A stretch of 64,000 nt of DNA from Bacteroidetes bacterium MED-G17. GTDB taxonomy: Bacteria > Bacteroidota > Bacteroidia > NS11-12g > UBA9320. The first letter of the stretch is position 1; each line of letters begins with the position of its first letter. Positions 10,859-61,489 of this stretch are shown in pieces. The DNA lies in contig NTKK01000003.1 in assembly GCA_002457675.1 (NCBI GenBank), positions 142,668 through 206,667 of the forward strand, in the 5' to 3' direction. The notes beneath the pieces are model-generated. The model had not been told where the DNA came from, did no database searches, and was given only the letters and a program-made list of their open reading frames with translations. Position numbers and translations under genes: made by a program.

Positions 10859-10866
10859 TATACTTG
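10859..10866 (+). promoter_or_regulatory. -7 box of recJ, 5 nt before its TTG start
   Basis: TATACTTG has one mismatch to TAnnTTTG and ends 5 nt before the TTG at 10872. The mRNA would start at or next to the start codon. Confidence 0.45.
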
Positions 10867-10871
10867 AGGTC

Positions 10872-12554
10872 TTGGAAAAGCTTAGTTATCAATGGAGTGA
10901 AAATTTAGCGGATACGCCTAAAGAAACCATGCAAATATTTGAGCATTTGGGATTTAGCTCTATTATGTCGAAGCTAATTGTTCAAAAAGGTATACATAAT
11001 GTTGAGAGTGCAAAAAAGTTTTTCCTCCCAAAAGTAGACCAACTATATGACCCCTTTCTGATGAAGGGAATGGAGGAAGCAGTAGATAGAATAGCTCAAG
11101 CAATCACGAATGGACAAAAAATATTGGTTTATGGGGATTATGATGTTGACGGAACTACTTCAGTTGCTTTATTGTTTTCATTTCTTGAAGATTTAGGTAT
11201 ATCCGTAAGTTTCTATATCCCGGATAGGGAAAAAGAAGGGTATGGGATAAGTTCTCTAGGAATAAACTATGCGCATCAAAATAATATCAAACTAATTGTT
11301 GCTCTTGACTGTGGGATACGGTCAGTGGAGCTTGTTCAGAAGGCTAAGAACCTAAGCATCGATTTTGTCATCTGCGACCATCATATACCTGGAGCAACTT
11401 TACCTGATGCATTTGCTATTTTGAATCCTAAACAAAAAGGATGTAATTATCCATTTAAAGAATTATCTGGATGTGGCATTGGTTTTAAACTCTGTCAGGC
11501 TATTGCTTCACGTTTGCGTTTAGATTCAAGCACGTATATGGATAAAATTGATTTGGTAGCTGTGAGTATAGCTGCTGATTTGGTTGAAATGAATGACGAA
11601 AATAGGGTACTCACATTTTTAGGTATGAAAAAATTATCAGAAAATCCATTTGGAGGACTGCGCTTATTTAGAGATTTAGTGATAGGCAATCGGCCAGTAA
11701 AGACACACGACCTTGTTTTTAAAATTGGCCCTAGAATCAATGCAGCAGGAAGAGTTTTTCATGCCAATCAATCCGTAAAAACCCTTCTTTATGGTGGACA
11801 AGAACATTTTGATAAGCTAAATGCATTAAACAAAGAGAGACAAGAACTAGACCAACATGTCGGAAAGCAAGCATTGGCAATGCTATCAAAAGATACAAAG
11901 AGTACAGTTGTTTTTCAATCGGATTGGCACAAAGGTGTCATAGGTATTGTCGCCTCTAGAATATTGGAGCATGCTTATAAGCCTACTGTTGTACTGACTG
12001 AAAAGTCAGCAGATATTTTGGTAGGTTCTGCAAGGAGTATTCCCAATTTCAATATGTATGAAGGTTTAAATAAATGCGCAGATTTACTTGAACAATTTGG
12101 AGGGCATTATTTTGCTGCAGGTCTAAGCCTTAAGAAAAATAATTTATCTGCTTTCAAACAGCGCTTTGAAGAAGTAGTCTCCCAAACCTTAATCGATATA
12201 GATTTTGTGCCAAAGGCAATTTATAATTCGGAATTAAAGCTCGAAGAAATTACAGGAAAGTTGGCTGCAGAGGTGGAAAAATTAGCTCCATTTGGGCCTA
12301 AAAATATGAGACCTATTTTTTTGATTAAACAAGTAGAAAATTATCAATACCAGATCATTGGCAAAGGAAATCACCATCTGCGCTTAGAAATTTCACATGC
12401 TGGTCAAAAAATTAATTGCATAGCTTTTCAGATGGCGCATCATGCTCAGAAACTCAATCTTAAAGTACCTTTTGATCTATTTTTTCATCTCGAGATAAAT
12501 GATTTTCGGGGACGAAAAAACGTTCAACTTGTTGTTGTCGACATCAAGTTTTGA
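10872..12554 (+). CDS. recJ: Single-stranded-DNA-specific exonuclease RecJ
   Basis: RecJ degrades single-stranded DNA 5'-3' in recombination and mismatch repair. The 560-residue product has the DHH-family motifs: GDYDVDGTTS near residue 90, an ALDCG motif, and VICDHH near residue 170. A DHHA1 domain with the GGHYFAAG motif lies near residue 412, followed by the C-terminal OB-like domain. Length matches the E. coli enzyme. The start is a TTG at 10872, giving MEKLSYQW. No ATG exists before the conserved N-terminal region, and a promoter-like -7 box ends 5 nt upstream. It is divergent from the PIN-PhoH gene. Confidence 0.93.
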   Translation: MEKLSYQWSENLADTPKETMQIFEHLGFSSIMSKLIVQKGIHNVESAKKFFLPKVDQLYDPFLMKGMEEAVDRIAQAITNGQKILVYGDYDVDGTTSVALLFSFLEDLGISVSFYIPDREKEGYGISSLGINYAHQNNIKLIVALDCGIRSVELVQKAKNLSIDFVICDHHIPGATLPDAFAILNPKQKGCNYPFKELSGCGIGFKLCQAIASRLRLDSSTYMDKIDLVAVSIAADLVEMNDENRVLTFLGMKKLSENPFGGLRLFRDLVIGNRPVKTHDLVFKIGPRINAAGRVFHANQSVKTLLYGGQEHFDKLNALNKERQELDQHVGKQALAMLSKDTKSTVVFQSDWHKGVIGIVASRILEHAYKPTVVLTEKSADILVGSARSIPNFNMYEGLNKCADLLEQFGGHYFAAGLSLKKNNLSAFKQRFEEVVSQTLIDIDFVPKAIYNSELKLEEITGKLAAEVEKLAPFGPKNMRPIFLIKQVENYQYQIIGKGNHHLRLEISHAGQKINCIAFQMAHHAQKLNLKVPFDLFFHLEINDFRGRKNVQLVVVDIKF

Positions 12555-12575
12555 TTTTTTTATTATTTTTAATGG

Positions 12576-13847
12576 ATGAAAAATGTTTTACTTCCTTACG
12601 TTTTCTCACTCTGTTTTACTCATCTATCTGCCCAAATTACTGTTGTAGCAAGTGGGTCTGGCAGCAATGAGATCAATGTAAATTCATCATATACGCAGAA
12701 TTTTAACGCCTTAAACTCAAATGGTTCTGCCAATTTTTCTAATAACAGTACGCTTCGTGCGTGGTATATAAATTCCGAGCATTTTGACAACAACTCCAAT
12801 ACGTATTATTCCGGGGCAGGAACCAATAGTGCCGGTAGGGTTTATTCATTGGGTTCTTCAGCCAGCAGTGATTGTGCCCTGGGCTATGTAGGTTCGGGAA
12901 CAAATGACTATTTTAATCTTGGTTTTAGATTAAAAAATAACTCTGGTAGTAATTTGCGTTCAGTCACAATTTCTTTTGTTGGAGAGCAATGGAGGAGTGG
13001 GGGAAATACAAATGATAACAATAATCATCTTCATTTCTTTTATCAAGTATTTTCTGGGGCAGGGAGTTTACCAACAAATACTAATCAAGGCAATTGGACA
13101 CAAATAAATTCATTGTCATTTACTGCTCCACAAAAATCGGTAACTGTCGGTGCTTTAAATGGAAATATGAGTGCAAATAGAAAAGTGGTTTCTACTACTA
13201 TACAAGTCAATGTGCCAAATGGAAATGAAATTTGGTTTAGATGGGTAGGAAATGATGGTTCAGGTTTCGATGCCGCCTTGGGTATTGACGATTTTACCAT
13301 TACACCATCAAGTACTGTGCCTGTGACTTGGCTGTATCAAAACCCGACAAGGGTGAGTGAAAAACTTGTGAAGATAGAATTTGCAACTGCTTCAGAGATT
13401 AATAATGAAAAATTTGAGATACAAAAAAATATAGAAGGAGAAAGTGCTTTTCGAACAGTCAAAGAAATGGCAGGGAAGGGTAATTTCACAGGAGTTACTT
13501 CTTACCAATTTCATGATAAAGTAAATAATTTACAGACCAATTTTTATCGAATAAAGCAAGTTGATTTTGACGGCAAGTTTTCTTATACACCAGTGCTTGT
13601 TTTGCAGAAACAAGCGTGTGAAAAGTTAACTTTTTTCCCGAATCCATGTAAAAACAAAATTTATATTCATTCAAGTACACCATTATCAAATGCCTTGGTT
13701 TTTGATTCAAAAGGTCATTTAGTAGCTTCTCAAAAATTCTCTAAAAATCAAGAATTAGTTTTATCTCAACTAAAACAAGGAAAATATTACATAAATGTAT
13801 TCAACAAAAGAGGAAGATTGAAAGAACTAAAAGTTGTAAAACAGTAA
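12576..13847 (+). CDS. Secreted protein with T9SS sorting domain
   Basis: A 423-residue exported protein of unknown function. A signal peptide (residues 1-19, ending HLSAQ) is followed by a Ser/Asn/Gly-rich beta region with GIDDFTITP near residue 240, as seen in choice-of-anchor-like extracellular proteins. The last ~80 residues form a type A T9SS C-terminal domain, with FFPNPCKNKIYIHS, LVFDSKGHLV and LKQGKYYINV. It should therefore be exported by the machinery encoded at the window start. It begins 21 nt after recJ and may share its transcript. No catalytic motif is recognisable. Confidence 0.85.
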   Translation: MKNVLLPYVFSLCFTHLSAQITVVASGSGSNEINVNSSYTQNFNALNSNGSANFSNNSTLRAWYINSEHFDNNSNTYYSGAGTNSAGRVYSLGSSASSDCALGYVGSGTNDYFNLGFRLKNNSGSNLRSVTISFVGEQWRSGGNTNDNNNHLHFFYQVFSGAGSLPTNTNQGNWTQINSLSFTAPQKSVTVGALNGNMSANRKVVSTTIQVNVPNGNEIWFRWVGNDGSGFDAALGIDDFTITPSSTVPVTWLYQNPTRVSEKLVKIEFATASEINNEKFEIQKNIEGESAFRTVKEMAGKGNFTGVTSYQFHDKVNNLQTNFYRIKQVDFDGKFSYTPVLVLQKQACEKLTFFPNPCKNKIYIHSSTPLSNALVFDSKGHLVASQKFSKNQELVLSQLKQGKYYINVFNKRGRLKELKVVKQ

Positions 13848-17066: not shown

Positions 17067-18089
17067 CTATAAAATATTTACCTCTGCTTGAAGTTCTATG
17101 TTAAATTTCTTTTTGACAGATTCAATTATGGCCAATGATAGATTTTTTATTTCTAATCCAGAAGAATTACCATAATTGACTAGAACCAAAGGCTGTTTTG
17201 GGTAAGTGCCAAAATTATTTTTTCGAAAATTTTTCCAGCCGGTTCTCTCTATTAACCATGCTGCAGGAATTTTAATACTTTCATCAGGCAGTATGTAGTG
17301 TGGTATTACAGAAAATGATTTTAAAAGAATTTCAAACTGTTTTACAGAAATGACAGGATTTTTAAAAAATGACCCTGCATTTCCTAGCTCTTTCGGGTTT
17401 GGCAATTTTGATTGTCTCACGGCAATTACAGCTGATGATATATCTTGAATACTTGGGTGATTAATTCCGCGTTCCTTTAGATAATTAGCTAAGCTAGCAT
17501 ACGAAGATTTTATATGATGATTCAATTTTGAAAGCTTAAGCGTCACCGTCGTAATAATCGCTTTATTTTTTAGACTTCCTTTAAAAATACTACTTCGGTA
17601 TCCAAAATTCATTTCGCTTTTATGAATTTTTATAAATCTTTTCTCTTCTACATGAAAAGCCTCCAACTCAACAAAAATATTCTGTAACTCTTGACCATAA
17701 GCACCAATATTTTGAATAGGTGCAGCGCCCATACTCCCTGGGATTAAAGATAAATTCTCCATGCCACCAAAGTTATTTTTCAGACACCATAAAACTGTCT
17801 CATGCCAATTTTCTCCAGCGCCAAATCTTACTTCAGTATGGCTTGAATTATCAGCAATTATTTCTTTACCCATTATTTTGTTATGTAAAACAACACCCTC
17901 AAAATCTTTGGTAAATAAAATATTGCTCCCACCACCTATTGTTAGAAATTGTTTGTCGATAAGATGCTTATATATGTTTGGATCTTCTAGGTCCTCAGGA
18001 TAAGTTATTTCCCCTAAGAATTTTGCATTAACGTCAATACCAAATGTATTGAGACGCTCTAAAGATTGATTTTTTGACAACCTTATCAT
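17067..18089 (-). CDS. murB: UDP-N-acetylenolpyruvoylglucosamine reductase MurB
   Basis: MurB reduces the enolpyruvyl group to give UDP-MurNAc in peptidoglycan synthesis. The 340-residue protein is the E. coli-like type. It has the FAD-binding motif GGGSNILFTKDFEG near residue 53, LIPGSMGAAPIQNIGAYGQE, the catalytic Ser in GNAGSFFKNPV, and the conserved Glu five residues from the C-terminus (LQAEVNIL). It is the first gene of a four-gene operon. Its ATG follows a consensus -7 box by only 7 nt. Confidence 0.95.
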   Translation of the reverse strand: MIRLSKNQSLERLNTFGIDVNAKFLGEITYPEDLEDPNIYKHLIDKQFLTIGGGSNILFTKDFEGVVLHNKIMGKEIIADNSSHTEVRFGAGENWHETVLWCLKNNFGGMENLSLIPGSMGAAPIQNIGAYGQELQNIFVELEAFHVEEKRFIKIHKSEMNFGYRSSIFKGSLKNKAIITTVTLKLSKLNHHIKSSYASLANYLKERGINHPSIQDISSAVIAVRQSKLPNPKELGNAGSFFKNPVISVKQFEILLKSFSVIPHYILPDESIKIPAAWLIERTGWKNFRKNNFGTYPKQPLVLVNYGNSSGLEIKNLSLAIIESVKKKFNIELQAEVNIL

Positions 18090-18096
18090 TATTAAG

Positions 18097-18104
18097 CAAA
18101 GCTA
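18097..18104 (-). promoter_or_regulatory. -7 box of the murB operon
   Basis: TAGCTTTG on the minus strand matches TAnnTTTG exactly and ends 7 nt before the murB ATG, leaving almost no 5' leader. Confidence 0.6.
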
Positions 18105-19849: not shown

Positions 19850-19857
19850 TAACTTTG
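19850..19857 (+). promoter_or_regulatory. -7 box 4 nt before the Na/Pi cotransporter start
   Basis: TAACTTTG matches TAnnTTTG and is followed by TTGT and then the TTG start at 19862, a leaderless arrangement. The TAA of the box is also the in-frame stop, so no earlier start is possible. Confidence 0.65.
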
Positions 19858-19861
19858 TTGT

Positions 19862-21547
19862 TTGCCAATAGTAGAAGTTATAAAGTTGTTAGGCTCAATT
19901 GCCTTTTTTATTTTTGGAATGCACCTGATGAGTGACGGTGTAAACCGATTGGCAAGTGGCAATTTTAAAGCTGTAATAAATGCGATGTCAGGAAATCGAT
20001 TCACTGGCATTTTAACTGGCTTTTTTTCAACTTCTATTGTACAATCTTCTTCAACTATAACTGTTTTAATTGTCAGTTTTGTTAATGCGAAGTTGATTAG
20101 TCTAAAACAATCGATATACCTTGTTCTAGGGTCGAATATCGGCACTACGCTTACCGCATGGCTGATATTATTCCTAGGATTTGGTGATGTTTCATTTAGC
20201 AATCCAGATTATATTCTTCCCTTATTGGTCATTGCAGTTCCAATATATTTTTCAAGAAATAATCAGTTACGATCATTTGGGACACTCACCATAGGTTTTG
20301 TCATATTGGTCTTTGGTTTAGCAGAGTTGAAAAGTACGGTAATTGGTTTTGATTTAAGTAACAATATTTATTTCACTGAGCTTGTGGAGAATAATAACCA
20401 AGAAGGAATAAAAGGTGTTTTTAGTTTTTTTCTTTTGGGTTTGGTATTTACATCACTTATTCAAAGCTCAAGTGCAGCCTTGGCACTTACACTTGCCATG
20501 GTTGTTGATGGCCTTTCTTTCGAATTGGCAGCTGGGATGATTCTGGGTGCTAATCTCGGTACTACTATAACCTGCAACTTAGCAGCAATAGTTGCAAATA
20601 CTGAGGCAAAAAAAGCTGCGCGGGCTCATTTCGTAATTAATTTAATGGGTATTTTATGGGCATTCCCACTATTTTATGTTTTGCTTTCATTGGTGGGCAA
20701 TTTATTTGATTATTTGTTGCCGATTATTGGTTTACAGGGAACACAAGAAATAATTCAATACGAACTTGCTTTGTTTCACACGGGTTTCAACCTAATTAAT
20801 GTGGTGTTAGTGGTGTGGTTTGTGCCATTTATTGAAAAGATGGCATCAAGATTGGTTTTTGCAGCAGAAGTAAATGAACAAAGCAGAAAAGACAACTTAT
20901 TAAATCCAATTTTTACATCATCATCTGATTATTCAATGTTAAAAGTGCACGATGAAGTGCATGGGTTTTTGGATTTAAATTTGGAAATGATGGAGCTTTT
21001 TGGAACCCTCATTAATCAAAAGGATCAAGATAAACAGCAGGATGTGATAAACAAAATAATCGATTTAGAGGAAAAGTCGGATTCGCTTGAATTAAAAATT
21101 GCATCTGTGCTCACACGAATTGCCCAAAATGGCGATGGAAATGATAATCAAATCAGAAAACAACTCATAATCGTAACTGAATTAGAGAGAATTGCAGATA
21201 AAATTTATGATTTATCTGAGCTTTTTCAACAAAAAAGAGAAAATAAGATTTGGTTTATTCAAAAGCAGAGAGATGCCCTTTTACTATTGTTGCAAGATTG
21301 TATCCTTATATTACACACATTAAAAAAGATCCTTAAAAATAAAGAAAATGCAATTGAGCTCTCAAACTTTTCGATGCTGTGTGAACGCTTAAATCAAGAT
21401 ATGAAAAACATAAAAAGAAATCATTATGCAAGCATCCAAAAAGGAAACTATAAAATAAAGAGTGGTGTTATTTTTAACAATATGTTTACGACCTTGGCGA
21501 GCATTGAAGAAAATACAGGTATTATTTTTTCAGAAATTATCGAATAG
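19862..21547 (+). CDS. Na/Pi cotransporter family protein with PhoU-like domain
   Basis: A 561-residue sodium/phosphate cotransporter (NptA/YjbB type). The two QSSS repeats are clear: STSIVQSSSTITVLIV followed by GSNIGTTLTAW, and LIQSSSAALALTL followed by GANLGTTITCN. The C-terminal ~200 residues are helical and resemble PhoU. The start must be the TTG at 19862. The next Met is inside the first membrane helix (residue 20), and an in-frame stop lies 4 codons upstream. Divergent from the PiT gene, so two unrelated phosphate systems share a 160-bp intergenic region. Direction of transport (import or export) cannot be read from sequence. Confidence 0.9.
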   Translation: MPIVEVIKLLGSIAFFIFGMHLMSDGVNRLASGNFKAVINAMSGNRFTGILTGFFSTSIVQSSSTITVLIVSFVNAKLISLKQSIYLVLGSNIGTTLTAWLILFLGFGDVSFSNPDYILPLLVIAVPIYFSRNNQLRSFGTLTIGFVILVFGLAELKSTVIGFDLSNNIYFTELVENNNQEGIKGVFSFFLLGLVFTSLIQSSSAALALTLAMVVDGLSFELAAGMILGANLGTTITCNLAAIVANTEAKKAARAHFVINLMGILWAFPLFYVLLSLVGNLFDYLLPIIGLQGTQEIIQYELALFHTGFNLINVVLVVWFVPFIEKMASRLVFAAEVNEQSRKDNLLNPIFTSSSDYSMLKVHDEVHGFLDLNLEMMELFGTLINQKDQDKQQDVINKIIDLEEKSDSLELKIASVLTRIAQNGDGNDNQIRKQLIIVTELERIADKIYDLSELFQQKRENKIWFIQKQRDALLLLLQDCILILHTLKKILKNKENAIELSNFSMLCERLNQDMKNIKRNHYASIQKGNYKIKSGVIFNNMFTTLASIEENTGIIFSEIIE

Positions 21548-47127: not shown

Positions 47128-47135
47128 CAAAAGTA
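47128..47135 (-). promoter_or_regulatory. -7 box 6 nt before the lipoprotein start
   Basis: TACTTTTG on the minus strand matches TAnnTTTG and ends 6 nt before the ATG at 47121. Confidence 0.6.
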
Positions 47136-47146: not shown

Positions 47147-47731
47147 TTAATGCAATTTTGCTTGTATAGGCAAAGATGTTAAAATTTCTGCTTCAGCATC
47201 CATAAGCTCATTGAGTCGAGCATAGACTAATTCTTTGTCAAAATAGTGAAGGGCAAGTTTAACGAAAATGTGGGCGTGTTTTGCCTCGGAAGTCCAAAGT
47301 TGTTTGTAGAATAGTTGCAAGTCTATTTCTTTACAATTTTGTGCGATCATTTTGAAGCGCTCAGCCCCTCGACATTCGATAACTGAGCCAAGTAATAAGC
47401 GATCTAAAAATCGTTCTTCGATGCCCGATTTCATACATTTCAACAGTTTTTGGACGTATAGATCCTTTTCCATGTTTGATGGAAGTGGAATGCCTCTATT
47501 GGTCATCAATAAGTAAACTTGATTGAAATGCTCAAGCTCCTCTATTGCAGTATCAATTAAATCGGGAATAATCAAAGATCTATTGGGGTACTTTGCTACC
47601 AGGCTCATGGCCATGCCACTTGCTTTTCGTTCACAGTCTGCATGATCTTGAAGAAAGGAAGGAAAATCGTCGAGCACGGCTTTTATCCAATCTTTTGGGC
47701 TAGCACATTTTACATCTATTGATAATTTCAC
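47147..47731 (-). CDS. miaE: tRNA-(ms2io6A)-hydroxylase MiaE
   Basis: MiaE hydroxylates the isopentenyl group of ms2i6A37 in tRNA. The 194-residue protein has the ferritin-like diiron fold, with ligands in DCERKASGMAMSL, AIEELEHFNQVY, SVIECRGAERF and SEAKHAHIFVKL. The start is a GTG (47731) placed 4 nt after TACTTTTG, another leaderless-type arrangement. It is divergent from rpsP. Confidence 0.9.
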   Translation of the reverse strand: MKLSIDVKCASPKDWIKAVLDDFPSFLQDHADCERKASGMAMSLVAKYPNRSLIIPDLIDTAIEELEHFNQVYLLMTNRGIPLPSNMEKDLYVQKLLKCMKSGIEERFLDRLLLGSVIECRGAERFKMIAQNCKEIDLQLFYKQLWTSEAKHAHIFVKLALHYFDKELVYARLNELMDAEAEILTSLPIQAKLH

Positions 47732-47735
47732 ACAA

Positions 47736-47743
47736 CAAAAGTA
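47736..47743 (-). promoter_or_regulatory. -7 box 4 nt before miaE
   Basis: TACTTTTG on the minus strand matches TAnnTTTG and is followed by TTGT and the GTG start at 47731. Confidence 0.65.
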
Positions 47744-49804: not shown

Positions 49805-49812
49805 TATTTTCG
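49805..49812 (+). promoter_or_regulatory. -7 box of tRNA-Pro
   Basis: TATTTTCG (TTCG variant) ends 12 nt before the mature tRNA 5' end. The other two tRNA genes here have a similar box at a similar distance. Confidence 0.5.
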
Positions 49813-49824
49813 CAATTCTTTTCT

Positions 49825-49899
49825 CGGGGTGTAGCGTAGCCCGGTCATCGCGCCTGCTTTGGGAGCAGGAGGTCGCAGGTTCGAATCCTGCCACCCCGA
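49825..49899 (+). tRNA. tRNA-Pro (anticodon TGG)
   Basis: The cloverleaf has acceptor CGGGGTG/CACCCCG and anticodon stem CCTGC/GCAGG with loop TTTGGGA, so the anticodon is TGG. The T-arm is GCAGG-TTCGAAT-CCTGC. CCA is not encoded. Confidence 0.95.
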
Positions 49900-49936
49900 C
49901 TGGTTTCTCGATTGCTTCGGAAACAACGCATTGTAT

Positions 49937-50599: not shown

Positions 50600-50870
50600 G
50601 GCCTCGGTGCAGCAGGTTTTCCAAAAATGTGGCTGATATTTCTTCAAATGCAAAAGGAACCAATACCATTGAGTTGACTACCAACAATGGCATATTGGTG
50701 AAAAGAGTTGATGTAGACTGGTATAGGAAAATACAGCGAATGTTTTTTCAGGAATAGTACACATGATCAACAGCTACTAGAGGTTTTAGGGTGTTGTCTA
50801 TAGTTGAATTACCAATTACAGACGTTTAGACCAACTATTTTTTTTAAATAATTTAGAGTATCTTTGGTGT
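50600..50870 (+). pseudogene. Intergenic stretch with a possible gene remnant
   Basis: In this 271-nt gap one frame stays open from inside pgmB to a TAG at 50755-50757. It encodes about 42 residues from a GTG at 50629, including GTNTIELTTNNGILVKRVDV. That resembles the end of a beta-rich secreted domain, but there is no plausible start or signal. It could be the 3' remnant of a decayed gene. The rest (50758-50858) shows nothing recognisable. Confidence 0.25.
50859..50866 (+). promoter_or_regulatory. -7 box 4 nt before a lipoprotein gene
   Basis: TATCTTTG matches TAnnTTTG and is followed by GTGT and the ATG at 50871. Confidence 0.65.
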
Positions 50871-51335
50871 ATGCGTATTGGTATATTTTTAATTATTTCA
50901 ATTCTATTGTTCAATTGCTCTGAAGAGAAAGTAGTAATTGAATATGTTGATCGACCGGAAACAAATACTCAAGAAGATATAAGTGGTCTCTATATGGGAA
51001 GGACGGTATGGAAGCAGTTTCGTAATGATGGACGTCAAACAGGTCTTTGGTCTGCTGATGACACTTTTTGGGTTACAAAATACCCTGCTTATGATGGCGA
51101 CAGTGTTTTCGTTGTTGGGCAGTATCCTGATACCCTCCACCTAAAAACGTTTGATAATAGTGTCTATTCTAGGGTAAACCAGTGGAAGAACAACGATGAA
51201 AAAAGTAGCTGGAGCGATGGTGAACGTTGGGAAGTAAAAAATGATACTTTATTAAGAGAATGGTTCACGCAGAAACTTGATAGCAATGGAAAGAAAACAC
51301 GATGGGAAGGTGTTGGTGTTTATCCAAAAACGTAA
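50871..51335 (+). CDS. Hypothetical lipoprotein
   Basis: The family is not recognised. The 154-residue product has a lipobox (LLFNC, Cys16). A domain rich in Trp and charged residues follows (GRTVWKQFRNDGRQTGLWSADDTFWV, shown in two parts by function; TRWEGVGVYP at the end), which looks like a small lipocalin-like or beta-barrel fold. It is a single-gene unit between the pgmB region and tRNA-Ala, with its own leaderless-type promoter. Confidence 0.6.
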   Translation: MRIGIFLIISILLFNCSEEKVVIEYVDRPETNTQEDISGLYMGRTVWKQFRNDGRQTGLWSADDTFWVTKYPAYDGDSVFVVGQYPDTLHLKTFDNSVYSRVNQWKNNDEKSSWSDGERWEVKNDTLLREWFTQKLDSNGKKTRWEGVGVYPKT

Positions 51336-51377: not shown

Positions 51378-51385
51378 TACCTTTA
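51378..51385 (+). promoter_or_regulatory. -7-like box of tRNA-Ala
   Basis: TACCTTTA has one mismatch to TAnnTTTG and ends 11 nt before the mature tRNA. Confidence 0.4.
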
Positions 51386-51396
51386 AAATTCCTTTA

Positions 51397-51470
51397 GGGG
51401 CCTTAGCTCAGCTGGCTAGAGCGCTACACTGGCAGTGTAGAGGTCACGAGTTCGAATCTCGTAGGCTCCA
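51397..51470 (+). tRNA. tRNA-Ala (anticodon GGC)
   Basis: Acceptor GGGGCCT pairs with AGGCTCC (one G-U). The anticodon stem CTACA/TGTAG encloses CTGGCAG, so the anticodon is GGC. The T-arm is ACGAG-TTCGAAT-CTCGT. CCA is not encoded in full. Confidence 0.94.
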
Positions 51471-51660
51471 CTATAAATTGTTGATTAACAGGAAATTAAT
51501 TACGCGTTTAAATCCACGGTATTTCGAGAATAGGTCTTTTTTGGCAAAAAAACAGTAAAAAATAGCAGTTAATTGGTAGTAAATGGACCAAGATTATTTG
51601 AATATGTTTAGGAAAAAGCGTGGATAGTATGTAGCTACTTGATTCGATATAACTATTTAA

Positions 51661-52162: not shown

Positions 52163-53125
52163 TTATTTTTTAATAAAAACTTGATGTTGGGCAGATGTGT
52201 TGTCAATGACCAAAAGGACATAGTTTCCTTTTGGGAAATCCTTTACCGATATAGCTTGAGTGCCACGGTCCGATTGCATAGTGAACATCAGCGAACCATC
52301 CATACGAAAAATACTGATTGTACTTGCAGATCTTAGCTCTATAGACAATTTGTCTGTTGCTGGATTTGGATATGCATTAATTTTACTCTTGCGAACTTGA
52401 TTGATCTTTGACGTTCCCTCATTACGTAAAAAGCTAGAACGTTGATACTGCAGACTTGAATTGGTGTAAAATTTTTCAAATGCAACAACAGGTAAAGGAA
52501 TTTCTGGCACCCACCAATATTTCCCTTCTTCAACATAAGTAACAGTCAGTGGTCCCAGGGGGCCGCCAAACATAGTCTTGATAGACTGAACCAATACTGC
52601 ATTGTCATATTTGGTGCCATCGGGCAAGATCAATGTAGAAGACCCTAGCGAAATACTTTCCCATTTATCGGCAAGTGGTGCTTCAAAACCCATAAACAAA
52701 AAAGTGGAGTTAATTGAATCTATGGAATAAGAGCTAGCATTTAGGGGAAATTGCATCCACCGAACACCATTGGTATAACTGGCTTCAACGTTTTCGGTAA
52801 TTCTCCCATAATTGACAATTTGATTGTTTTGATAGGTATAAAAAAATTCACCATTGTCTGATTTTATCAAGTGAGTCGCTTTAGGATAATTGCTTTTAGA
52901 AGAAGAGGAATCTAGGGGCAATAGTTTCATTTCGTAGGTCTTGGAAGTCATAACTTTTGAAAAGTCCCAAGGACCATTATAATCGTATTTGATTGGTTCA
53001 GCATCACCTTCTATTTGTTCGAATGTGAAGCCGATGCCATTCGCAGGAACAGTGGGCATATCTATATTTTGACATATAGCAAGTATACAAGACAACTGTA
53101 AGGCACTAAATAACATAAAACGCAT
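52163..53125 (-). CDS. Secreted protein with T9SS sorting domain
   Basis: A 320-residue exported protein with no recognised catalytic domain. A signal peptide (about 1-19) precedes a beta-rich body with NGPWDFSKVMTSKTYEMKLL and YVEEGKYWWVPEIPLPVVAFE. The last ~75 residues are a type A T9SS C-terminal domain, with INAYPNPATDKLSIELRS, IFRMDGSLMF and DFPKGNYVLLV. It is probably another cargo of the PorP-GldKLMN machinery. The start ATG lies 4 nt after TAACTTCG. Confidence 0.82.
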   Translation of the reverse strand: MRFMLFSALQLSCILAICQNIDMPTVPANGIGFTFEQIEGDAEPIKYDYNGPWDFSKVMTSKTYEMKLLPLDSSSSKSNYPKATHLIKSDNGEFFYTYQNNQIVNYGRITENVEASYTNGVRWMQFPLNASSYSIDSINSTFLFMGFEAPLADKWESISLGSSTLILPDGTKYDNAVLVQSIKTMFGGPLGPLTVTYVEEGKYWWVPEIPLPVVAFEKFYTNSSLQYQRSSFLRNEGTSKINQVRKSKINAYPNPATDKLSIELRSASTISIFRMDGSLMFTMQSDRGTQAISVKDFPKGNYVLLVIDNTSAQHQVFIKK

Positions 53126-53129
53126 TGTC

Positions 53130-53137
53130 CGAAGTTA
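53130..53137 (-). promoter_or_regulatory. -7 box (TTCG type) 4 nt before a T9SS cargo gene
   Basis: TAACTTCG on the minus strand is followed by GACA and the ATG at 53125. It has one mismatch to TAnnTTTG; the same TTCG variant recurs in this window. Confidence 0.5.
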
Positions 53138-53278: not shown

Positions 53279-53659
53279 TTAGAAAAAAAGAAAATGAATG
53301 GCAATAAGGGATATGCAAAGAAAAAACATAAGCAATGAAGGAATGATGGATACAAATGGATCCTGAATCTTCAAATGAAAGTAAATGGCCGCAAGCATAA
53401 ATAGGGCCATTACAGCAGCTGCAGGAAAAACCAAAAAATCGAAATACAAACCGCACAACAGCAAAATAGCGGTAATGATTTTTATAGTGCCCACAATATA
53501 CATGCTGGTTTTACTCAGGCCATAGTTCTGAAATTCTTCCAACAAATTCATGGCTCCGCCGCCTCTATATACTGTTTTCCTATTTTTTCTGAACAACCAT
53601 ACACTCAATACAGTTAGTGCTACGTAAATAATAATGGCTCGATAAAGTAGAAAAACCAT
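53279..53659 (-). CDS. DoxX-like membrane protein
   Basis: A 126-residue inner-membrane protein with four predicted helices and the DoxX-like family pattern. That pattern is GGGAMNLLEEFQNYGLS, then MYIVGTIKIITAILLLCGL, a PAAAVMALFMLAAIYFHLKI helix, and a hydrophobic C-terminus. DoxX relatives are linked to quinone or redox chemistry, but this subgroup has no assigned function. The gene stands alone with a TTCG-type box 4 nt before its ATG. Confidence 0.75.
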   Translation of the reverse strand: MVFLLYRAIIIYVALTVLSVWLFRKNRKTVYRGGGAMNLLEEFQNYGLSKTSMYIVGTIKIITAILLLCGLYFDFLVFPAAAVMALFMLAAIYFHLKIQDPFVSIIPSLLMFFLCISLIAIHFLFF

Positions 53660-53663
53660 GCAC

Positions 53664-53671
53664 CGAAAATA
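53664..53671 (-). promoter_or_regulatory. -7 box (TTCG type) 4 nt before the DoxX-like gene
   Basis: TATTTTCG on the minus strand is followed by GTGC and the ATG at 53659. Confidence 0.5.
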
Positions 53672-53796: not shown

Positions 53797-55083
53797 CTAT
53801 CCAATCGATGGCATATGTGTTTTTTTCTCTTTAACAAGCAAGTGAATACAGCCCAACAGTAAAGAGATACTGCCTAGAAAAATAGGTGAAAAGCTTTGCA
53901 TATAAGATCCATAGCCCAAATGGATAAAAAAAAGAAACCATATGAGCATCCACAAGGAGAAATTGTTTTTAAATTGTAGGGGCTTTTTTAAATCCACCCC
54001 GAGCAGCAAACAGCAAACGGCGGGCATGGTAAAAATATAATGATTAATCCATGAGCTGGGCGATATCCAGAGCAACAAAATGAGCCACGCAGAAAGTTCA
54101 TAAAACCAGGTGGTCTTGCAATTTCTCTTCCAAAAAGTAAGCACGGACATGCCCATTACCAGTATGGTTTTGATCAACATGCCCACGAACTTTGCCTGGT
54201 TTTCACTGAAAATGACCCAATCAATTTTTTTGTGCAATCCGCCGTATTTTTCTACGGCATAATTGGTAAAATGCCTATTGATAAAAGCATCGAGGCTTTG
54301 GTTGGAATGGTAATATCCAGTATTGCTGGTGCCAATTTCTTGGCCTGAAAAGAAGGGCGCAAGAACATTTTTCACCCAAAGGCTATTCATTTCCATAGAT
54401 TTTTCAAAGCCATAAAAAAATATGGGTACCAAAAAAAGCAAAAGCAAGGTGGTGGCTGCGATATAGCCCACGGACCTTACCTTGCCTTTTAAAAACATAA
54501 AAAATGCAATGATTAATGGTGTTACTTTTAGGGCAATGGCAAAGCCAATCCAAGCGCTATATTTTTCTTTTGCTTGTAGGCCTACCATACCCAACAATAT
54601 TAAAAAAAGCACCAGTGTATTTGATTGACCCATATGGACATTTGTAGCGATTAGTGGAATACAAATAAAAAAACTTAGCCATTTGTAAGGCACAATTCTA
54701 CCTGAAGATTTTTCGATAAAATAAAAACAAAGAAAAAAGCAGTAATAGCTTAATAAGCATATGCTCAACGCCCATAGTAGCGAAGAAAACCATAAGGCAA
54801 AGGGGCTGAACAGACTTATTAGCGTATAAAAAAAAGGCGGATAGGAATTGAACAAGAAATCAATAAGGAAGTTCTTGTCAAAAAAACGTACTTCAATGGC
54901 CGGGCGCAAAAATGCATTGAAATCGGATCTATTGTATACCACTGATCGAACAACAGCCTGCGTAACATTTCCAAGTACAAAAAGACCCATAAACAGTGCA
55001 GCCAATTTGTTTTTCTTTTGCAGAAAAAAAACAATGGCTGCTTTATTGGCCGCTTGTATGATATGTTGGGGTCTTTCTGACAC
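53797..55083 (-). CDS. GT87-like (DUF2029) integral-membrane glycosyltransferase
   Basis: A 428-residue protein with roughly 10-12 transmembrane helices. It resembles GT-C glycosyltransferase family 87 enzymes, which use polyprenyl-phosphate sugars. Supporting features are an N-terminal helix followed by a periplasmic loop with acidic residues (VVYNRSDFNAFLRPAIEVRF), LLLGMVGL-type helices, and a NSYPPFFYTLISLFSPFAL segment. Substrate is unknown. The start is a GTG at 55083, 7 nt after TACCTTTG. Confidence 0.7.
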   Translation of the reverse strand: MSERPQHIIQAANKAAIVFFLQKKNKLAALFMGLFVLGNVTQAVVRSVVYNRSDFNAFLRPAIEVRFFDKNFLIDFLFNSYPPFFYTLISLFSPFALWFSSLLWALSICLLSYYCFFLCFYFIEKSSGRIVPYKWLSFFICIPLIATNVHMGQSNTLVLFLILLGMVGLQAKEKYSAWIGFAIALKVTPLIIAFFMFLKGKVRSVGYIAATTLLLLFLVPIFFYGFEKSMEMNSLWVKNVLAPFFSGQEIGTSNTGYYHSNQSLDAFINRHFTNYAVEKYGGLHKKIDWVIFSENQAKFVGMLIKTILVMGMSVLTFWKRNCKTTWFYELSAWLILLLWISPSSWINHYIFTMPAVCCLLLGVDLKKPLQFKNNFSLWMLIWFLFFIHLGYGSYMQSFSPIFLGSISLLLGCIHLLVKEKKTHMPSIG

Positions 55084-55090
55084 AGATATT

Positions 55091-55098
55091 CAAAGGTA
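55091..55098 (-). promoter_or_regulatory. -7 box of the GT87-like gene
   Basis: TACCTTTG on the minus strand matches TAnnTTTG and ends 7 nt before the GTG at 55083. An imperfect inverted repeat (AAGCCTTG 55098-55105, CAAAGCTT 55111-55118) abuts it; it may be an operator or the end of the upstream transcript. Confidence 0.5.
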
Positions 55099-55674: not shown

Positions 55675-55682
55675 TAATATTG
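55675..55682 (+). promoter_or_regulatory. -7-like box 5 nt before a membrane protein gene
   Basis: TAATATTG has one mismatch to TAnnTTTG and ends 5 nt before the ATG at 55688. Confidence 0.45.
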
Positions 55683-55687
55683 GTCTT

Positions 55688-56101
55688 ATGTTAAAGAAAA
55701 TCAAAACCTTAATGCTCATTTCAGGTATCGCAGATGTGCTGCAAATGATGCCGTTATTTTTGGCCTTGTTTAGCCCAGAAATTAAAACTTTTTTTATGGA
55801 AGACGGGATACAAGGCAGCTCTCAGAATCCAATGGCTGTGGAAGTATTTAATATATTCTTTCTTGTATTTGCATTTCTTGGCTTGGCATTCATTGTGGCC
55901 ACATTTGTTGCAAGAACATTTGAGAATTTGGAGGCCCTGCAGAAGTCTTCTTTGCTGCTGGCTATTTATCATTTGGCTTGGGCATTGCCCGATTTCATCA
56001 ACATTACCATGGGCAAACCACATGCGCCATTGCTTATAATGTTGCTTAGTTTGATTCCGGTAGTCTCTTTGTTTTATGCTTGGAAAAATGGGGAATTATA
56101 A
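55688..56101 (+). CDS. Small four-helix membrane protein
   Basis: The family is not recognised. The 137-residue product is very hydrophobic, with about four predicted transmembrane helices (near 10-30, 55-77, 88-108, 117-134) and no catalytic motif. The next gene starts 7 nt after its stop, so the two probably form an operon. Confidence 0.6.
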   Translation: MLKKIKTLMLISGIADVLQMMPLFLALFSPEIKTFFMEDGIQGSSQNPMAVEVFNIFFLVFAFLGLAFIVATFVARTFENLEALQKSSLLLAIYHLAWALPDFINITMGKPHAPLLIMLLSLIPVVSLFYAWKNGEL

Positions 56102-56967: not shown

Positions 56968-57480
56968 TTATAAGTATAGTTCCAATTCTTTTAAGATTTG
57001 TATGTGGTAGTTGAAGCCTTTATTAACTTCATCTACCCAACTGTCATGTTGTATTTTACGAATGGATTGAACCAATGCTGCCTGGTTCTCAAAATCATAT
57101 ATCTTACCCGTTGACGGTACTTTTTGTTTGCTTAGCTGACCGCCAAACAATAGGGCCATATAATTGAGGTAAATATGGGCTTGAATGTTTGTGGGGTTTA
57201 AAGCGCTTAAATGCGCACAGTAATTTCTTGTGGCGTCAAGAATCAAAACATCTTGTATATGCTGTGCAAGCTCCTCGATATCTTCTTTAAGTGCATTGCC
57301 TCTCGACAAATCAGGGTGGGGCAGGTCAAATTTTTCTAAGGTTTGAAAAATACTTTGATGTTGTAATAGGTAAGCCCCATAGGCTTCCTTGCTGAGTTTG
57401 CCTTGTATCATTTCCTTGTTGAACGGCATTTCCTCTGCTTGCTTGTGCAATTTTTGTGTAGCTGTTTTTAAATGATTCAT
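56968..57480 (-). CDS. Heme oxygenase-like protein
   Basis: From the ATG at 57480 the 170-residue helical protein fits the biliverdin-producing heme oxygenase family. His12 in the LHKQAEEMPFNKEM opening would be the proximal heme ligand, and the distal region shows YMALLFGGQLSKQKV. It would release iron, CO and biliverdin from heme. The upstream in-frame start would run through the -7 box TATATTTG, which ends 4 nt before this ATG. It is divergent from an HMA-domain protein 58 nt away. Confidence 0.78.
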   Translation of the reverse strand: MNHLKTATQKLHKQAEEMPFNKEMIQGKLSKEAYGAYLLQHQSIFQTLEKFDLPHPDLSRGNALKEDIEELAQHIQDVLILDATRNYCAHLSALNPTNIQAHIYLNYMALLFGGQLSKQKVPSTGKIYDFENQAALVQSIRKIQHDSWVDEVNKGFNYHIQILKELELYL

Positions 57481-57484
57481 GCAC

Positions 57485-57492
57485 CAAATATA
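57485..57492 (-). promoter_or_regulatory. -7 box 4 nt before the heme oxygenase-like gene
   Basis: TATATTTG on the minus strand matches TAnnTTTG and is followed by GTGC and the ATG at 57480. Confidence 0.65.
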
Positions 57493-57526: not shown

Positions 57527-57534
57527 TATATTCG
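57527..57534 (+). promoter_or_regulatory. -7 box (TTCG type) 4 nt before the HMA gene
   Basis: TATATTCG is followed by CACA and the GTG start at 57539. Confidence 0.5.
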
Positions 57535-57538
57535 CACA

Positions 57539-57736
57539 GTGACTCAAGAATTTCATGTTCAAGGCATTACTTGTGCAAATTGTGAGAAGAAGGTAATTGC
57601 TGCGGTCCAAGGCCTCGAGCAAGCGGAAATAATTTCGCTAGATCCCAATTCTGGTAAATTGCTATTAAAATCAACAGATGCTAAATTAAAGGAAAAGCTC
57701 GAAAACAATTTGCCAAAAAAGTTTTCACTAGCATAG
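57539..57736 (+). CDS. Small HMA (heavy-metal-associated) domain protein
   Basis: A 65-residue single-domain protein of the CopZ/HMA fold. The metal-binding motif GITCANC (Cys12, Cys15) is followed by the usual helix (EKKVIAAVQGLEQAE) and strands. It probably binds a soft metal such as Cu(I) as a chaperone. The GTG at 57539 is chosen because it is preceded at 4 nt by TATATTCG and gives the normal HMA length; longer versions overlap the heme oxygenase promoter. It converges with mnmE 2 nt away. Confidence 0.75.
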   Translation: MTQEFHVQGITCANCEKKVIAAVQGLEQAEIISLDPNSGKLLLKSTDAKLKEKLENNLPKKFSLA

Positions 57737-57738: not shown

Positions 57739-59076
57739 TTATTTTCCGATGCAAAACTGGCCAAAGATGGTGCCTAGTATATCCCGATCAATATCGATCT
57801 CTCCGGTGATGTTGCCCAAGTGTTTCAGAGCATATCGGATTTCAAATGCAAGTAAATCGTGACTTAGCCCATTTTTTAGCCCGTTTTGTGCGTTGTTGAG
57901 GTAGGACAATGCTTGTTCCAGCTCATATTTATGTCTGGCATTGGTGATGATGGTTTGATCGCCTATTTGAAGTTGACTGGCGTAAGAAGAAAAGGCATCT
58001 AACAGGCTTTTAATTTCTTTGTTTTTGGCACTTATGGTGATGTGGTCTTTGTTGGGGCGAAACAGATCAGCCTTGTTTCGCACTACCCATATTTCTCCTC
58101 GTAGGTTTTTGTCCTTAATATAATGCACATCCTGCAAGACTTCGGCATCGCTTGTTTCAAGAGGGTCGTATAAATAAACAACAATCTTTGCTTTTTCAAT
58201 ATTGCGCATGGTACGTTCAATGCCAAGATTTTCAATGGTGTTTTTGGTTTCTCTTATGCCGGCTGTATCTATTAATCTAAATTTGACGCCTTGCAATTCA
58301 AAAAATTCTTCGATTGTGTCTCTAGTAGTTCCTGGAATGTTGCTAATGATTGCCCTGTCGTCATTGAGCAAAGTATTCAATAGAGTGGATTTTCCCGCAT
58401 TTGGTCTTCCTACCAAGGCAGTTAATACACCCTCTTTGATGGCTTGTCCTGTTTGGAAAGATGTGATCAATGAATTTACTAAGGATTGTAAATTCTCAAT
58501 CAAGTTGATCAGTTTTTCTCGGTCAGCAAATTCCACATCTTCTTCGCCAAAGTCGAGCTCCAACTCCAATAAAGAAGCAAATTGAATAAGTTCCTTTCGA
58601 AGTTCATTTATTTCAGAAGAAACACCACCTCTAAGCTGATCCAAGGCCAAACGATGGCTTGCTTGATTTTCTGAGGCAATTAAATCGGCCACGGCTTCAG
58701 CTTGACTTAAGTCCATTTTGCCATGTAGAAAAGCGCGTTCAGTAAACTCTCCTGCCTGAGCGGGTTGGGCTCCATTTTGGATAAGTAAGTCCAATATTTC
58801 TTTTAAAATGTAGGAAGAGCCATGACAGCTTATTTCTACCATGTTTTCTCCAGTGTAAGATTTTGGTTGTCTAAATATACTCAGCAATACTTCGTCAATC
58901 TTATCCGTTCCATCAGTTATTTGACCAAAATGGAGGGAGTAGCCTTTTTGTTTGTTTAAGTCTTTCCCTTCAAAAACTGCATTTGCTATGCTTATGGCTT
59001 TTGGGCCACTTATCCGGACAATACCTATGGCACCGGCTCCGTTTGGTGTTGCTATGGCAGCTATGGTGGATTGGAT
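57739..59076 (-). CDS. mnmE: tRNA modification GTPase MnmE, apparently starting at ATC
   Basis: MnmE, with MnmG, makes the cmnm5U34 modification in tRNA. Read from 59076 the protein has 445 residues, close to E. coli (454). It includes the conserved N-terminus STIAAIATPNGAGAIGIVRI, the GTPase G1 motif GRPNAGKST (about 223-231), IPGTTRDT, DTAG, NKAD, and the C-terminal FCIGK. No ATG, GTG or TTG occurs in frame between the TGA at 59080-59082 and residue 64 (a TTG at 58887). Starting there would delete the N-terminal folate-binding region. The ATC at 59074-59076 sits exactly 4 nt after TATTTTTG and where the family Met is expected. Confidence 0.88.
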   Translation of the reverse strand: MQSTIAAIATPNGAGAIGIVRISGPKAISIANAVFEGKDLNKQKGYSLHFGQITDGTDKIDEVLLSIFRQPKSYTGENMVEISCHGSSYILKEILDLLIQNGAQPAQAGEFTERAFLHGKMDLSQAEAVADLIASENQASHRLALDQLRGGVSSEINELRKELIQFASLLELELDFGEEDVEFADREKLINLIENLQSLVNSLITSFQTGQAIKEGVLTALVGRPNAGKSTLLNTLLNDDRAIISNIPGTTRDTIEEFFELQGVKFRLIDTAGIRETKNTIENLGIERTMRNIEKAKIVVYLYDPLETSDAEVLQDVHYIKDKNLRGEIWVVRNKADLFRPNKDHITISAKNKEIKSLLDAFSSYASQLQIGDQTIITNARHKYELEQALSYLNNAQNGLKNGLSHDLLAFEIRYALKHLGNITGEIDIDRDILGTIFGQFCIGK

Positions 59077-59080
59077 GCGT

Positions 59081-59088
59081 CAAAAATA
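59081..59088 (-). promoter_or_regulatory. -7 box 4 nt before the ATC start of mnmE
   Basis: TATTTTTG on the minus strand matches TAnnTTTG and is followed by ACGC and then ATC (59076-59074), the spacing seen before ATG or GTG in eleven other genes here. Confidence 0.6.
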
Positions 59089-59856: not shown

Positions 59857-59934
59857 TGGTGAGTCATACTGGATTCGAACCAGTGACCTCTGCCCTGTCA
59901 AGGCAGCGCTCTAAACCAACTGAGCTAATGACTC
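59857..59934 (-). tRNA. tRNA-Val (anticodon GAC), CCA encoded
   Basis: Acceptor GAGTCAT pairs with ATGACTC. The anticodon stem CTGCC/GGCAG encloses TTGACAG, so the anticodon is GAC (Val). The T-arm is ACTGG-TTCGAAT-CCAGT and the 3' end ACCA is encoded. A TAATTTCG box (59945-59952) ends 10 nt upstream. Confidence 0.92.
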
Positions 59935-59944
59935 TAATTTGGGG

Positions 59945-59952
59945 CGAAATTA
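59945..59952 (-). promoter_or_regulatory. -7 box (TTCG type) of tRNA-Val
   Basis: TAATTTCG on the minus strand ends 10 nt before the mature tRNA 5' end, comparable to the 11-12 nt at the other two tRNA genes. Confidence 0.5.
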
Positions 59953-60207: not shown

Positions 60208-60215
60208 TACCTTTG
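60208..60215 (+). promoter_or_regulatory. -7 box 4 nt before the prohibitin-like gene
   Basis: TACCTTTG matches TAnnTTTG and is followed by CTCT and the ATG at 60220. Confidence 0.65.
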
Positions 60216-60219
60216 CTCT

Positions 60220-61050
60220 ATGAGTCAAGTTAAAATAAATAATCCATTGTCCAAGTTTGGCACAACGGGTATTGTTATTGCCCTAGTGGTATTGATAGTT
60301 TTGTTTCGTTCGGCCATTACTATTGATTCTGGTGAAGCTGGTGTATTGTACAAAAAATTTGGTGGAGGTGTCGATATAGAAAAAACCTACGGTGAAGGAT
60401 TTCATATTGTTGCGCCTTGGAATAAGATGATTCAGTATGAAGTTCGTCAACAAGAGATTTTGGAAACAATGAGTGTATTGTCATCTAATGGCTTGGACAT
60501 TAAATTGGAAGCTTCTATCTGGTTTCAACCGAAATATGAAGATTTGGGCAAACTGCATAAAGAAAGGGGCAAAGAATATATAGATAGGGTAATCAAGCCA
60601 GCTGTGCGTTCTGCAACGCGCAGCATAGTTGGTAGATACGCGCCTGAGCAGATTTATTCATCCAAAAGAGATGCTATTCAAAAAGAAATTTTTGAAGAAA
60701 CCAAACTGATTTTAGATCGGCAATATGTTCAGCTTAATGAAGTTTTGGTGAGAGATGTGACACTCCCTTCAACGATAAAATCCGCAATCGAGAAAAAACT
60801 TAAGCAAGAACAAGAAGCTTTGGAATATGAATTTAAGTTGAAAAAAGCTGTTCAGGAAGCAGAGAGGCAACGAATTGATGCCGAAGGAAAGGCTAAAGCA
60901 AATAAGATACTGAGTGCGTCATTAACAGACAAAATCTTGAGGGAAAAAGGTGTTGAAGCAACATTGAAGTTGTCGGAGTCCCCAAATGCTAAAGTTATTG
61001 TAATAGGCAACCCCAAAGATGGATTGCCTATCATTCTTGGAGATAAATAG
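60220..61050 (+). CDS. Prohibitin/SPFH-domain membrane protein
   Basis: A 276-residue SPFH-family protein with one N-terminal transmembrane helix (about 16-34). The prohibitin/band-7 domain follows (about 38-200, DSGEAGVLYKKFGGGVDIEK, EGFHIVAPWNKMIQYEVRQQ), then a coiled-coil tail with KKAVQEAERQRIDAEGKAKA. Such proteins form large rings or membrane scaffolds. The start is the ATG at 60220, fixed by the promoter 4 nt upstream; a longer frame from 60148 would be read through the promoter. Confidence 0.9.
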   Translation: MSQVKINNPLSKFGTTGIVIALVVLIVLFRSAITIDSGEAGVLYKKFGGGVDIEKTYGEGFHIVAPWNKMIQYEVRQQEILETMSVLSSNGLDIKLEASIWFQPKYEDLGKLHKERGKEYIDRVIKPAVRSATRSIVGRYAPEQIYSSKRDAIQKEIFEETKLILDRQYVQLNEVLVRDVTLPSTIKSAIEKKLKQEQEALEYEFKLKKAVQEAERQRIDAEGKAKANKILSASLTDKILREKGVEATLKLSESPNAKVIVIGNPKDGLPIILGDK

Positions 61051-61054
61051 AAGC

Positions 61055-61477
61055 TTACTGTTTTTCGTAAGTGCCGGTAGAGGTAATATTGTATAATTCA
61101 CCCGCATCAACCTTAATGTCGGTAGTCAGCGTAGAACCTTTCACCGTTGCATTGTAGATAATGTCTGCTCCATCTGCGATTGTATCTGAAGACAATACTT
61201 TGTCGTTGTTAAACTTACCAATTGCAACTGCCTTAATAAAAACTGAGGTGTCCGACAAATAGTGGTCCTGGCCTTCTTTGAAAATGTACATGGTATCTGT
61301 ATACGTTTCGTCTACAGGAAAACCAAAAGCGGTTCCCTTGTCTACGGCAGTGCCAATGTACACGCCAGCATAATCATCATTGGTAACAGGATTTTGGACA
61401 TCATTACTGGAAGAATCATCATCACTACAAGCAAACAGCGCTGCAATCATGCTAATTACAATTAAATTTCTAAGCAT
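61055..61477 (-). CDS. Hypothetical lipoprotein
   Basis: The family is not recognised. The 140-residue product has a lipobox (AALFACSDDDSSSND, Cys17), an acidic linker and a beta-rich domain with repeated short strands, suggesting a small periplasmic beta sandwich. It converges with the prohibitin-like gene 4 nt away. TAAATTCG ends 4 nt before its ATG. Confidence 0.6.
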   Translation of the reverse strand: MLRNLIVISMIAALFACSDDDSSSNDVQNPVTNDDYAGVYIGTAVDKGTAFGFPVDETYTDTMYIFKEGQDHYLSDTSVFIKAVAIGKFNNDKVLSSDTIADGADIIYNATVKGSTLTTDIKVDAGELYNITSTGTYEKQ

Positions 61478-61481
61478 GTTG

Positions 61482-61489
61482 CGAATTTA
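61482..61489 (-). promoter_or_regulatory. -7 box (TTCG type) 4 nt before a lipoprotein gene
   Basis: TAAATTCG on the minus strand is followed by CAAC and the ATG at 61477. Confidence 0.5.

Follow-up and report, generated by a model that had tools for sequence, protein, structure and literature searches.

Start-proximal TAnnTTTG boxes in Bacteroidetes bacterium MED-G17 predict abundant leaderless or near-leaderless mRNAs and point to AUC starts in mnmE and cmk

Ribosomes of the Bacteroidota disregard Shine-Dalgarno (SD) sequences, and both leaderless mRNAs and the TAnnTTTG -7 promoter box are already known. In this work we analysed copies of this box that lie directly before start codons in Bacteroidetes bacterium MED-G17 (assembly GCA_002457675.1; the source genome), beginning with a 64,000-nt stretch of contig NTKK01000003.1 (positions 142,668 to 206,667; the window). 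In Flavobacterium johnsoniae the box lies 4-5 nt from the transcription start site (TSS) and 87% of the leaders exceed 10 nt; the part of that study drawn on here describes no clear -33 motif and states that leaderless translation cannot account for the absence of SD sequences in that species (PMC6847099). In F. psychrophilum the box is found at -12 to -5 and 5.5% are leaderless (PMC9723704), and in B. thetaiotaomicron ∼3.7% of the leaders are shorter than 10 nt (PMC7366714). The anti-SD of Bacteroidia is sequestered (PMC9976891), AT-rich non-canonical ribosome binding sites were assigned to the FCB group in the StartLink work (PMC9581028), and reports of many leaderless mRNAs in Bacteroidetes are cited by Nakagawa (2017; PMC5397173). 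Zheng (2011), surveying Pribnow-like boxes only in 953 bacterial genomes, found leaderless genes in 207 of them and, among Bacteroidetes/Chlorobi, in 1 of 37 genomes (2.4%); the cited part of that survey allows for an undercount in Bacteroidetes and considers a large one unlikely (PMC3160421). Leaderless mRNAs are bound mainly by 70S ribosomes at the 5'-terminal codon, and IF3 is inhibitory at high levels (PMC9031893). Among the matches listed, our search of open-licence papers returned no measured large leaderless class in Bacteroidota and no leaderless AUC starts.

We concluded that a box ending 4-9 nt before the start codon is, in ∼30% of the genes with upstream space, very probably the sole sigma-A promoter, and that the corresponding mRNAs are likely leaderless or nearly so. 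About half of the source genome (1.67 Mb in 17 contigs) was sampled, as the window plus 40 stretches of 20 kb. Genes were called by a purpose-written gene finder (684 genes) that picked the starts blind to the box; 347 genes with less than 40 nt of intergenic upstream sequence or near a stretch end were dropped, and the 337 genes with at least 40 nt were counted. The box was defined as an exact TAnnTT[TC]G and the gap as the number of nt between box end and start codon; the background was provided by 200 rounds of dinucleotide shuffling. At gaps 0 to 10 we found 2, 1, 2, 1, 16, 5, 4, 9, 8, 6, and 4 exact boxes. The total at gap 4-9 was 48 vs a shuffled mean of 2.53 (maximum 8), and gap 4 alone gave 16 vs 0.37 (maximum 3), the shuffles yielding ∼0.4 per gap; the excess at gap 4 over a shuffled background anticipated by the first-pass annotation was thus present in the half of the genome sampled. 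With the window omitted, 39 exact boxes at gap 4-9 were counted in 304 genes (9, 5, 4, 8, 8, and 5 per gap), and 36 of these 39 genes start with ATG or GTG, 3 with TTG. An expectation-maximization (EM) motif fit, seeded with TANNTTTG and its position left free, recovered a TAnnTTTG-like box with its mode at gap 4 (30.4 expected genes, vs 4.7 at gap 3) and placed 31.8% of the 337 genes at gap 4-9. The fit assigned ∼12-14% of the genes having upstream space to gap 4-5 (leader of 0-1 nt) and ∼17% more to gap 6-9 (leader of 2-5 nt). The mode stayed at gap 4, with few genes at gaps 0-3, whether or not the window was included, and 88.4 of 304 genes were assigned to gap 4-9 without it. A fit seeded with no motif also arrived at the TTTG core, and seed TTGNNAAA led to TTTG; seeds AAAAAAAA and TATAATNN drifted to A-rich motifs. 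The edge at gap 4, observed directly, was found for in-frame ATGs, and out-of-frame ATGs showed no peak. The genome-wide rule is a sharp lower edge at 4 with a plateau to 9, rather than a fixed 4. The set distance claimed in the first-pass annotation therefore has to be relaxed, since gap-4 boxes are more frequent in the window than elsewhere and "exactly 4" overstates the rule; what stands is support for an abundant class of leaderless or near-leaderless genes across the genome, with gaps spread over 4-9 outside the window.

The box behaves as a promoter, because it is nearly absent inside operons, excludes upstream boxes and is present at tRNA genes. Only 3 of 238 operon-internal genes (same strand, at most 10 nt from the upstream gene) carry an exact box at gap 4-9, vs 11-21% in six other classes of genes, and an exact box lies 3-26 nt upstream of 13 of the 16 sampled tRNA genes. 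These two counts argue against a translation signal, that is, a Bacteroidota type of ribosome binding site: the box does sit where such a site would, but it also matches the experimentally known -7 element as described in the cited parts of three studies (PMC6847099, PMC7366714, PMC9723704), and we consider this explanation very improbable. The 16S rRNA retains the anti-SD CCTCC; five SD-like words were not enriched at -20 to -4 in the 337 genes, and SD absence is general in the phylum. One match to sigma-70 region 3 was obtained, a 288-aa protein identified as a sigma-A factor of the Bacteroidota type; its identity to the 80 best loci retrieved was 67-94%, and almost all of these are labelled Bacteroidota. 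(The labels of four named public records, L062, L066, L083, and L137, given as Chitinophaga pinensis, Sphingomonadales, Bifidobacterium breve, and Rokubacteria, look implausible for rpoD loci of this type.) The near boxes could alternatively be secondary promoters, with most mRNA made from upstream promoters and carrying ordinary leaders; promoters read by another sigma factor, degenerate copies of the box, or copies beyond 72 nt upstream leave room for this. A second exact box at gap 14-72 was, however, found in 0 of 48 near-box genes vs 57 of 279 others (p = 6e-5), hence the near boxes replace the upstream ones, and we rate the alternative as improbable.

An equally improbable alternative is that the box is a real promoter and the true starts lie downstream, so that the near codon is false and the leaders are ordinary. 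The starts do come from a simple gene finder, and 33 of the 337 blind starts are TTG, a weak start codon. Shifted starts, however, would not make an edge at exactly gap 4. Out-of-frame ATGs lack the peak; the nearest miaE orthologues align from residue 1 and those of SUI1 from residues 1-3, and residue 1 of MnmE stands opposite the Met of a sister species (see below). Chance, base composition or picked examples could be suspected from the greater richness of the window in gap-4 boxes (7/32 vs 9/304 genes), but the excess persisted without the window and against shuffles of the whole set, which leaves this explanation a negligible share.

The same pipeline was applied to relatives and control families. 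Flavobacteriaceae (31 loci, 342 genes) showed a box peak at gaps 17-25 and only 3.1% at gap 4-9; the gap 4-9 share was 2.7% in Cytophagales (n = 181) and 1.6% in Hymenobacter (n = 103). The source genome has roughly ten times the share of these controls. Fifteen of the named rpoD loci (80 in all) were placed in no control set; the Cytophagales gap shares come from 15 loci, and one earlier comparison from 12. G028, a genome of the same order, resembled the source genome with 35.7% at gap 4-9 (n = 92), and these two are the strongest near-box genomes among those sampled. Six other family members (G001, G002, G003, G006, G012, and G016; 31-102 genes each) gave 10-22%, and a pool of five named near relatives (31 genes) gave 14.5%. 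Four genomes of the class that belong to other families, chosen for high raw gap-4 counts (G069, G073, G143, and G206), gave 10.5-17%. In G143 (stretches L147-L151 and L202-L206) the ATG counts spiked at exactly gap 4 (10, vs 1 at gap 3 and 2 at gap 5), and G073 had 7 ATGs at gap 4. G009 and G172 (14 genes each, too few) and the 3-kb stretches of G021 were left out of the counts. Raw pattern counts (gap 4 vs gap 3) over 247 genomes of the phylum were judged to be swamped by chance matches in coding sequence, and only guided the sampling. Where an exact box lay within 60 nt, leaders of 0-9 nt were predicted for 9 of 98 genes in Flavobacteriaceae vs 49 of 99 here (window left out). The Flavobacteriaceae value is in keeping with published figures for three species (4-13%), and this speaks for the soundness of the method. 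An A-rich stretch at -8 to -13 was present in Flavobacteriaceae (135 genes, A 0.50-0.64) and absent in 81 genes here (A 0.28-0.40).

Conservation was followed gene by gene. Orthologues of miaE kept gap 4 in G009 and G014 and gap 5 in G002 (3 of 8 read), and SUI1 orthologues kept gap 4 in G001 and G006 (2 of 25 read); in these the other upstream DNA differs and the N-termini align. Of 362 orthologue pairs, 103 were dropped for unmatched N-termini and 259 were usable. Several points weigh against the promoter and short-leader reading. The near-box state was not significantly shared across the usable pairs (6/38 vs 25/221, p = 0.29), and in most SUI1 and miaE orthologues the box is farther away or missing. 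Among the 39 exact boxes outside the window, the 9 at gap 4 are not conspicuous, and boxes at gap 5-9 imply leaders of 1-5 nt, not strict leaderlessness, unless the TSS spacing is loose. Neither 68 near nor 82 far boxes had a clear TTG or TTTG peak of a -33 element upstream of them. The predicted 5' ends of near-box genes were more folded than those of far-box genes, and in comparison with coding sequence their folding was not significantly weaker (p = 0.11); the idea that leaderless 5' ends are less folded or more A-rich was dropped, as neither was observed. Near boxes are not confined to the order of the source genome, given the 10.5-17% found in other families. The starts come from our own gene finder, and the Flavobacteriaceae and Cytophagales control loci are all from the rpoD neighbourhood, so that orthologues are repeated. 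Three Bacteroidota with mapped transcripts have few short-leader mRNAs (4-13%, in the parts of those studies cited above). The orthologue test (p = 0.29) thus indicates that individual genes gain and lose the near box; the near-box layer as such is common to the lineage.

Next, 684 genes were scanned for a coding signal upstream of the first ATG, GTG or TTG. Nineteen genes scored at least 4, nine at least 6, and three above 13 (mnmE, a CrtI-like gene and a NodB-like gene). In mnmE (window 59076-57739, minus strand) an ATC is found at gap 4 and no in-frame ATG, GTG or TTG follows for 189 nt. Read from ATC, with the predicted N-terminus MQSTIAAIATP, the protein has a complete TrmE_N domain (profile 1-117) and scores 381.4, vs 346.1 from the usual start, against an NCBIfam cut-off of 380; a second MnmE model was passed either way. 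The MnmE of a sister species (69% identical) begins MVSTIAAIATP and aligns residue for residue, its Met opposite residue 1. The database record for this contig already takes the ATC as the initiating Met; the proteins of three other near-identical clusters are truncated, at 382 or 367 aa. In cmk (L032:14019-14714, plus strand), found outside the scan, an ATC also lies at gap 4 and no usual start precedes the P-loop; the predicted N-terminal peptide is MAFQSKINIAIDGH. Five Cmk clusters of 99-100% identity, one of them drawing on 69 contigs, have calls of 206-210 aa that lack the P-loop, and the Cmk of a sister at 79% identity is called at 202 aa. That the five near-identical clusters share the call argues, as judged from the proteins rather than from contig DNA, that an assembly slip at cmk is unlikely. 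By chance alone, a box would seldom lie at exactly gap 4 (0.37 per 337 genes). From sequence, mnmE and cmk appear to start at AUC, 4 nt past the box.

The CrtI-like gene (label provisional; L036, about 19449, minus strand) has an apparent ATC start directly after the upstream gene and no box, hence AUC use would not be confined to leaderless genes. The NodB-like gene (L004:921-1526, plus strand; ATA at gap 4, position 981) was judged ambiguous and put aside: 60 nt upstream there is an in-frame ATG, followed by a TAG, and in a homologue an ATG occurs at -72; it looks pseudogene-like or re-started. An upstream coding signal at score 6 was found in 0 of 474 Flavobacteriaceae genes, 0 of 221 Cytophagales genes and none in seven relatives, and in 1-2 genes in four sets. 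It is not unique to the source genome, because G016 (L042-L046 and L162-L166) had 13 of 178 such genes, with no near box in the six listed, which may be frameshifts or unusual starts. The simple hypothesis that leaderless and AUC starts stem from a loss of IF3 was rejected, as the genome has infC (193.9 bits, positions 3-169 of 170).

The sites in the window are collected in Table 1. All 18 boxes that the first-pass annotation had placed 4-7 nt before starts were located; 15 are exact and three have one mismatch. The twelve 4-nt spacers read as described (11 exact boxes and lysA), and the names recJ, miaE, murB, Na/Pi symporter, lysA, and mnmE were supported by family searches. Its list of start codons (ATG, GTG and TTG) held for the other genes and overlooked the ATC of mnmE. 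The boxes offered as an internal control 10-12 nt upstream of three tRNA genes proved exact for two of them, and tRNA-Ala has only a near-match. The Gre-like label comes from a single weak NCBIfam match, under the cut-off, to a transcript cleavage factor. The divergent genes at 57478-57541 have both boxes at gap 4, and their start codons are 58 bp apart. Boxes at exactly gap 4 are denser in the window, mainly at 42-62 kb, than elsewhere (7 of 32 blind-start genes vs 9 of 304; Fisher p = 2e-4).

Table 1. Box-bearing sites in the window (positions within the 64,000-nt stretch; gap in nt from box end to start codon or, for tRNA genes, to the mature end)
Feature	Position	Strand	Box	Gap	Start codon	Remarks
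recJ	10859..10874	+	TATACTTG	5	TTG 10872	one mismatch; recJ domains match
murB	18087..18104	-	TAGCTTTG (18104-18097)	7	ATG 18089	NCBIfam UDP-N-acetylmuramate dehydrogenase
Na/Pi symporter family	19850..19864	+	TAACTTTG	4	TTG 19862	
Gre-like gene	39045..39061	+	TATCTTTG	6	ATG 39059	
lysA	39563..39577	+	TTTCTTTG	4	ATG 39575	one mismatch; TIGR01048
SUI1/YciH-like	42837..42851	-	TACCTTTG	4	ATG 42839	family matches under curated cut-offs
47121 gene	47119..47135	-	TACTTTTG	6	ATG	
miaE	47729..47743	-	TACTTTTG	4	GTG 47731	family match
50871 gene	50859..50873	+	TATCTTTG	4	ATG	
53125 gene	53123..53137	-	TAACTTCG	4	ATG	secretion system C-terminal sorting domain
53659 gene	53657..53671	-	TATTTTCG	4	ATG	DoxX-like
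55083 gene	55081..55098	-	TACCTTTG	7	GTG	GT87
55688 gene	55675..55690	+	TAATATTG	5	ATG	one mismatch
57480 gene	57478..57492	-	TATATTTG	4	ATG	divergent from 57539 gene
57539 gene	57527..57541	+	TATATTCG	4	GTG	65 aa, CopZ-like (weak)
mnmE	57739..59088	-	TATTTTTG (59088-59081)	4 (ACGC)	ATC 59076-59074	
60220 gene	60208..60222	+	TACCTTTG	4	ATG	SPFH/Band 7
61477 gene	61475..61489	-	TAAATTCG	4	ATG	
tRNA-Pro	49805..49900	+	TATTTTCG	12		exact; control
tRNA-Ala	51378..51471	+	TACCTTTA	11		near-box, inexact; distance read by eye
tRNA-Val	59857..59952	-	TAATTTCG	10		exact; control

In the proposed explanation, transcription would start 4-5 nt past the box, with the spacing measured in Flavobacterium, and the 5' end would fall at the start codon or at most 5 nt before it. 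Leaders of 0-5 nt are predicted because the box acts as a promoter and the box-to-TSS spacing has been published; of the first-pass proposal that transcription begins at the first base of the start codon, a class driven by the -7 box probably stands, and the exact base depends on the Flavobacterium spacing. Ribosomes would then load on the mRNA 5' end without SD pairing, as for other leaderless mRNAs. Going one step further, we infer that the 5' end itself may mark the first codon, so that the near-cognate AUC could initiate in mnmE and cmk. The broader proposal is that in this lineage the TSS picks the start codon, about half of the sigma-A promoters fire less than 10 nt from the coding sequence and replace the A-rich leader, AUC initiates mnmE and cmk, and standard gene callers lose those N-termini; we regard it as evenly balanced between true and false. 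If the large leaderless class is true, the phylum is able to change between A-rich leaders and leaderless mRNAs, and the source genome with G028, the other family members and Flavobacteriaceae would form a natural series for studying the switch. The work also bears on gene starts that need correction: as called, all five of the near-identical Cmk clusters listed lack the P-loop, and three of four MnmE clusters lack the N-terminus.

The closest known systems share parts of this arrangement. The sigma-A (ABfr) promoters of Bacteroidota have the same TAnnTTTG -7 element, and the step at gap 4 fits the 4-5 nt measured between box and TSS; they differ in that the measured members have leaders, whereas 49 of 99 exact-box genes here are predicted to have 0-9 nt. 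The genes with A-rich, Kozak-like leaders in Flavobacterium likewise make no use of SD sequences and keep the anti-SD, but the A-rich stretch is missing here. Leaderless genes of Actinobacteria, Deinococcus-Thermus, and archaea also have a promoter element near the start codon; the element surveyed there is a Pribnow-like box, and here it is TAnnTTTG. Mycobacterial leaderless initiation resembles the present case in that most starts are ATG or GTG (36 of 39 near-box genes outside the window). It is described in the cited part of the source as needing ATG or GTG at +1 (PMC4633059), whereas at the predicted 5' ends here we found TTG (3 of 39) and an apparent AUC in mnmE and cmk; AUC starts at the 5' end, if true, would breach the ATG/GTG rule of the mycobacterial leaderless genes.

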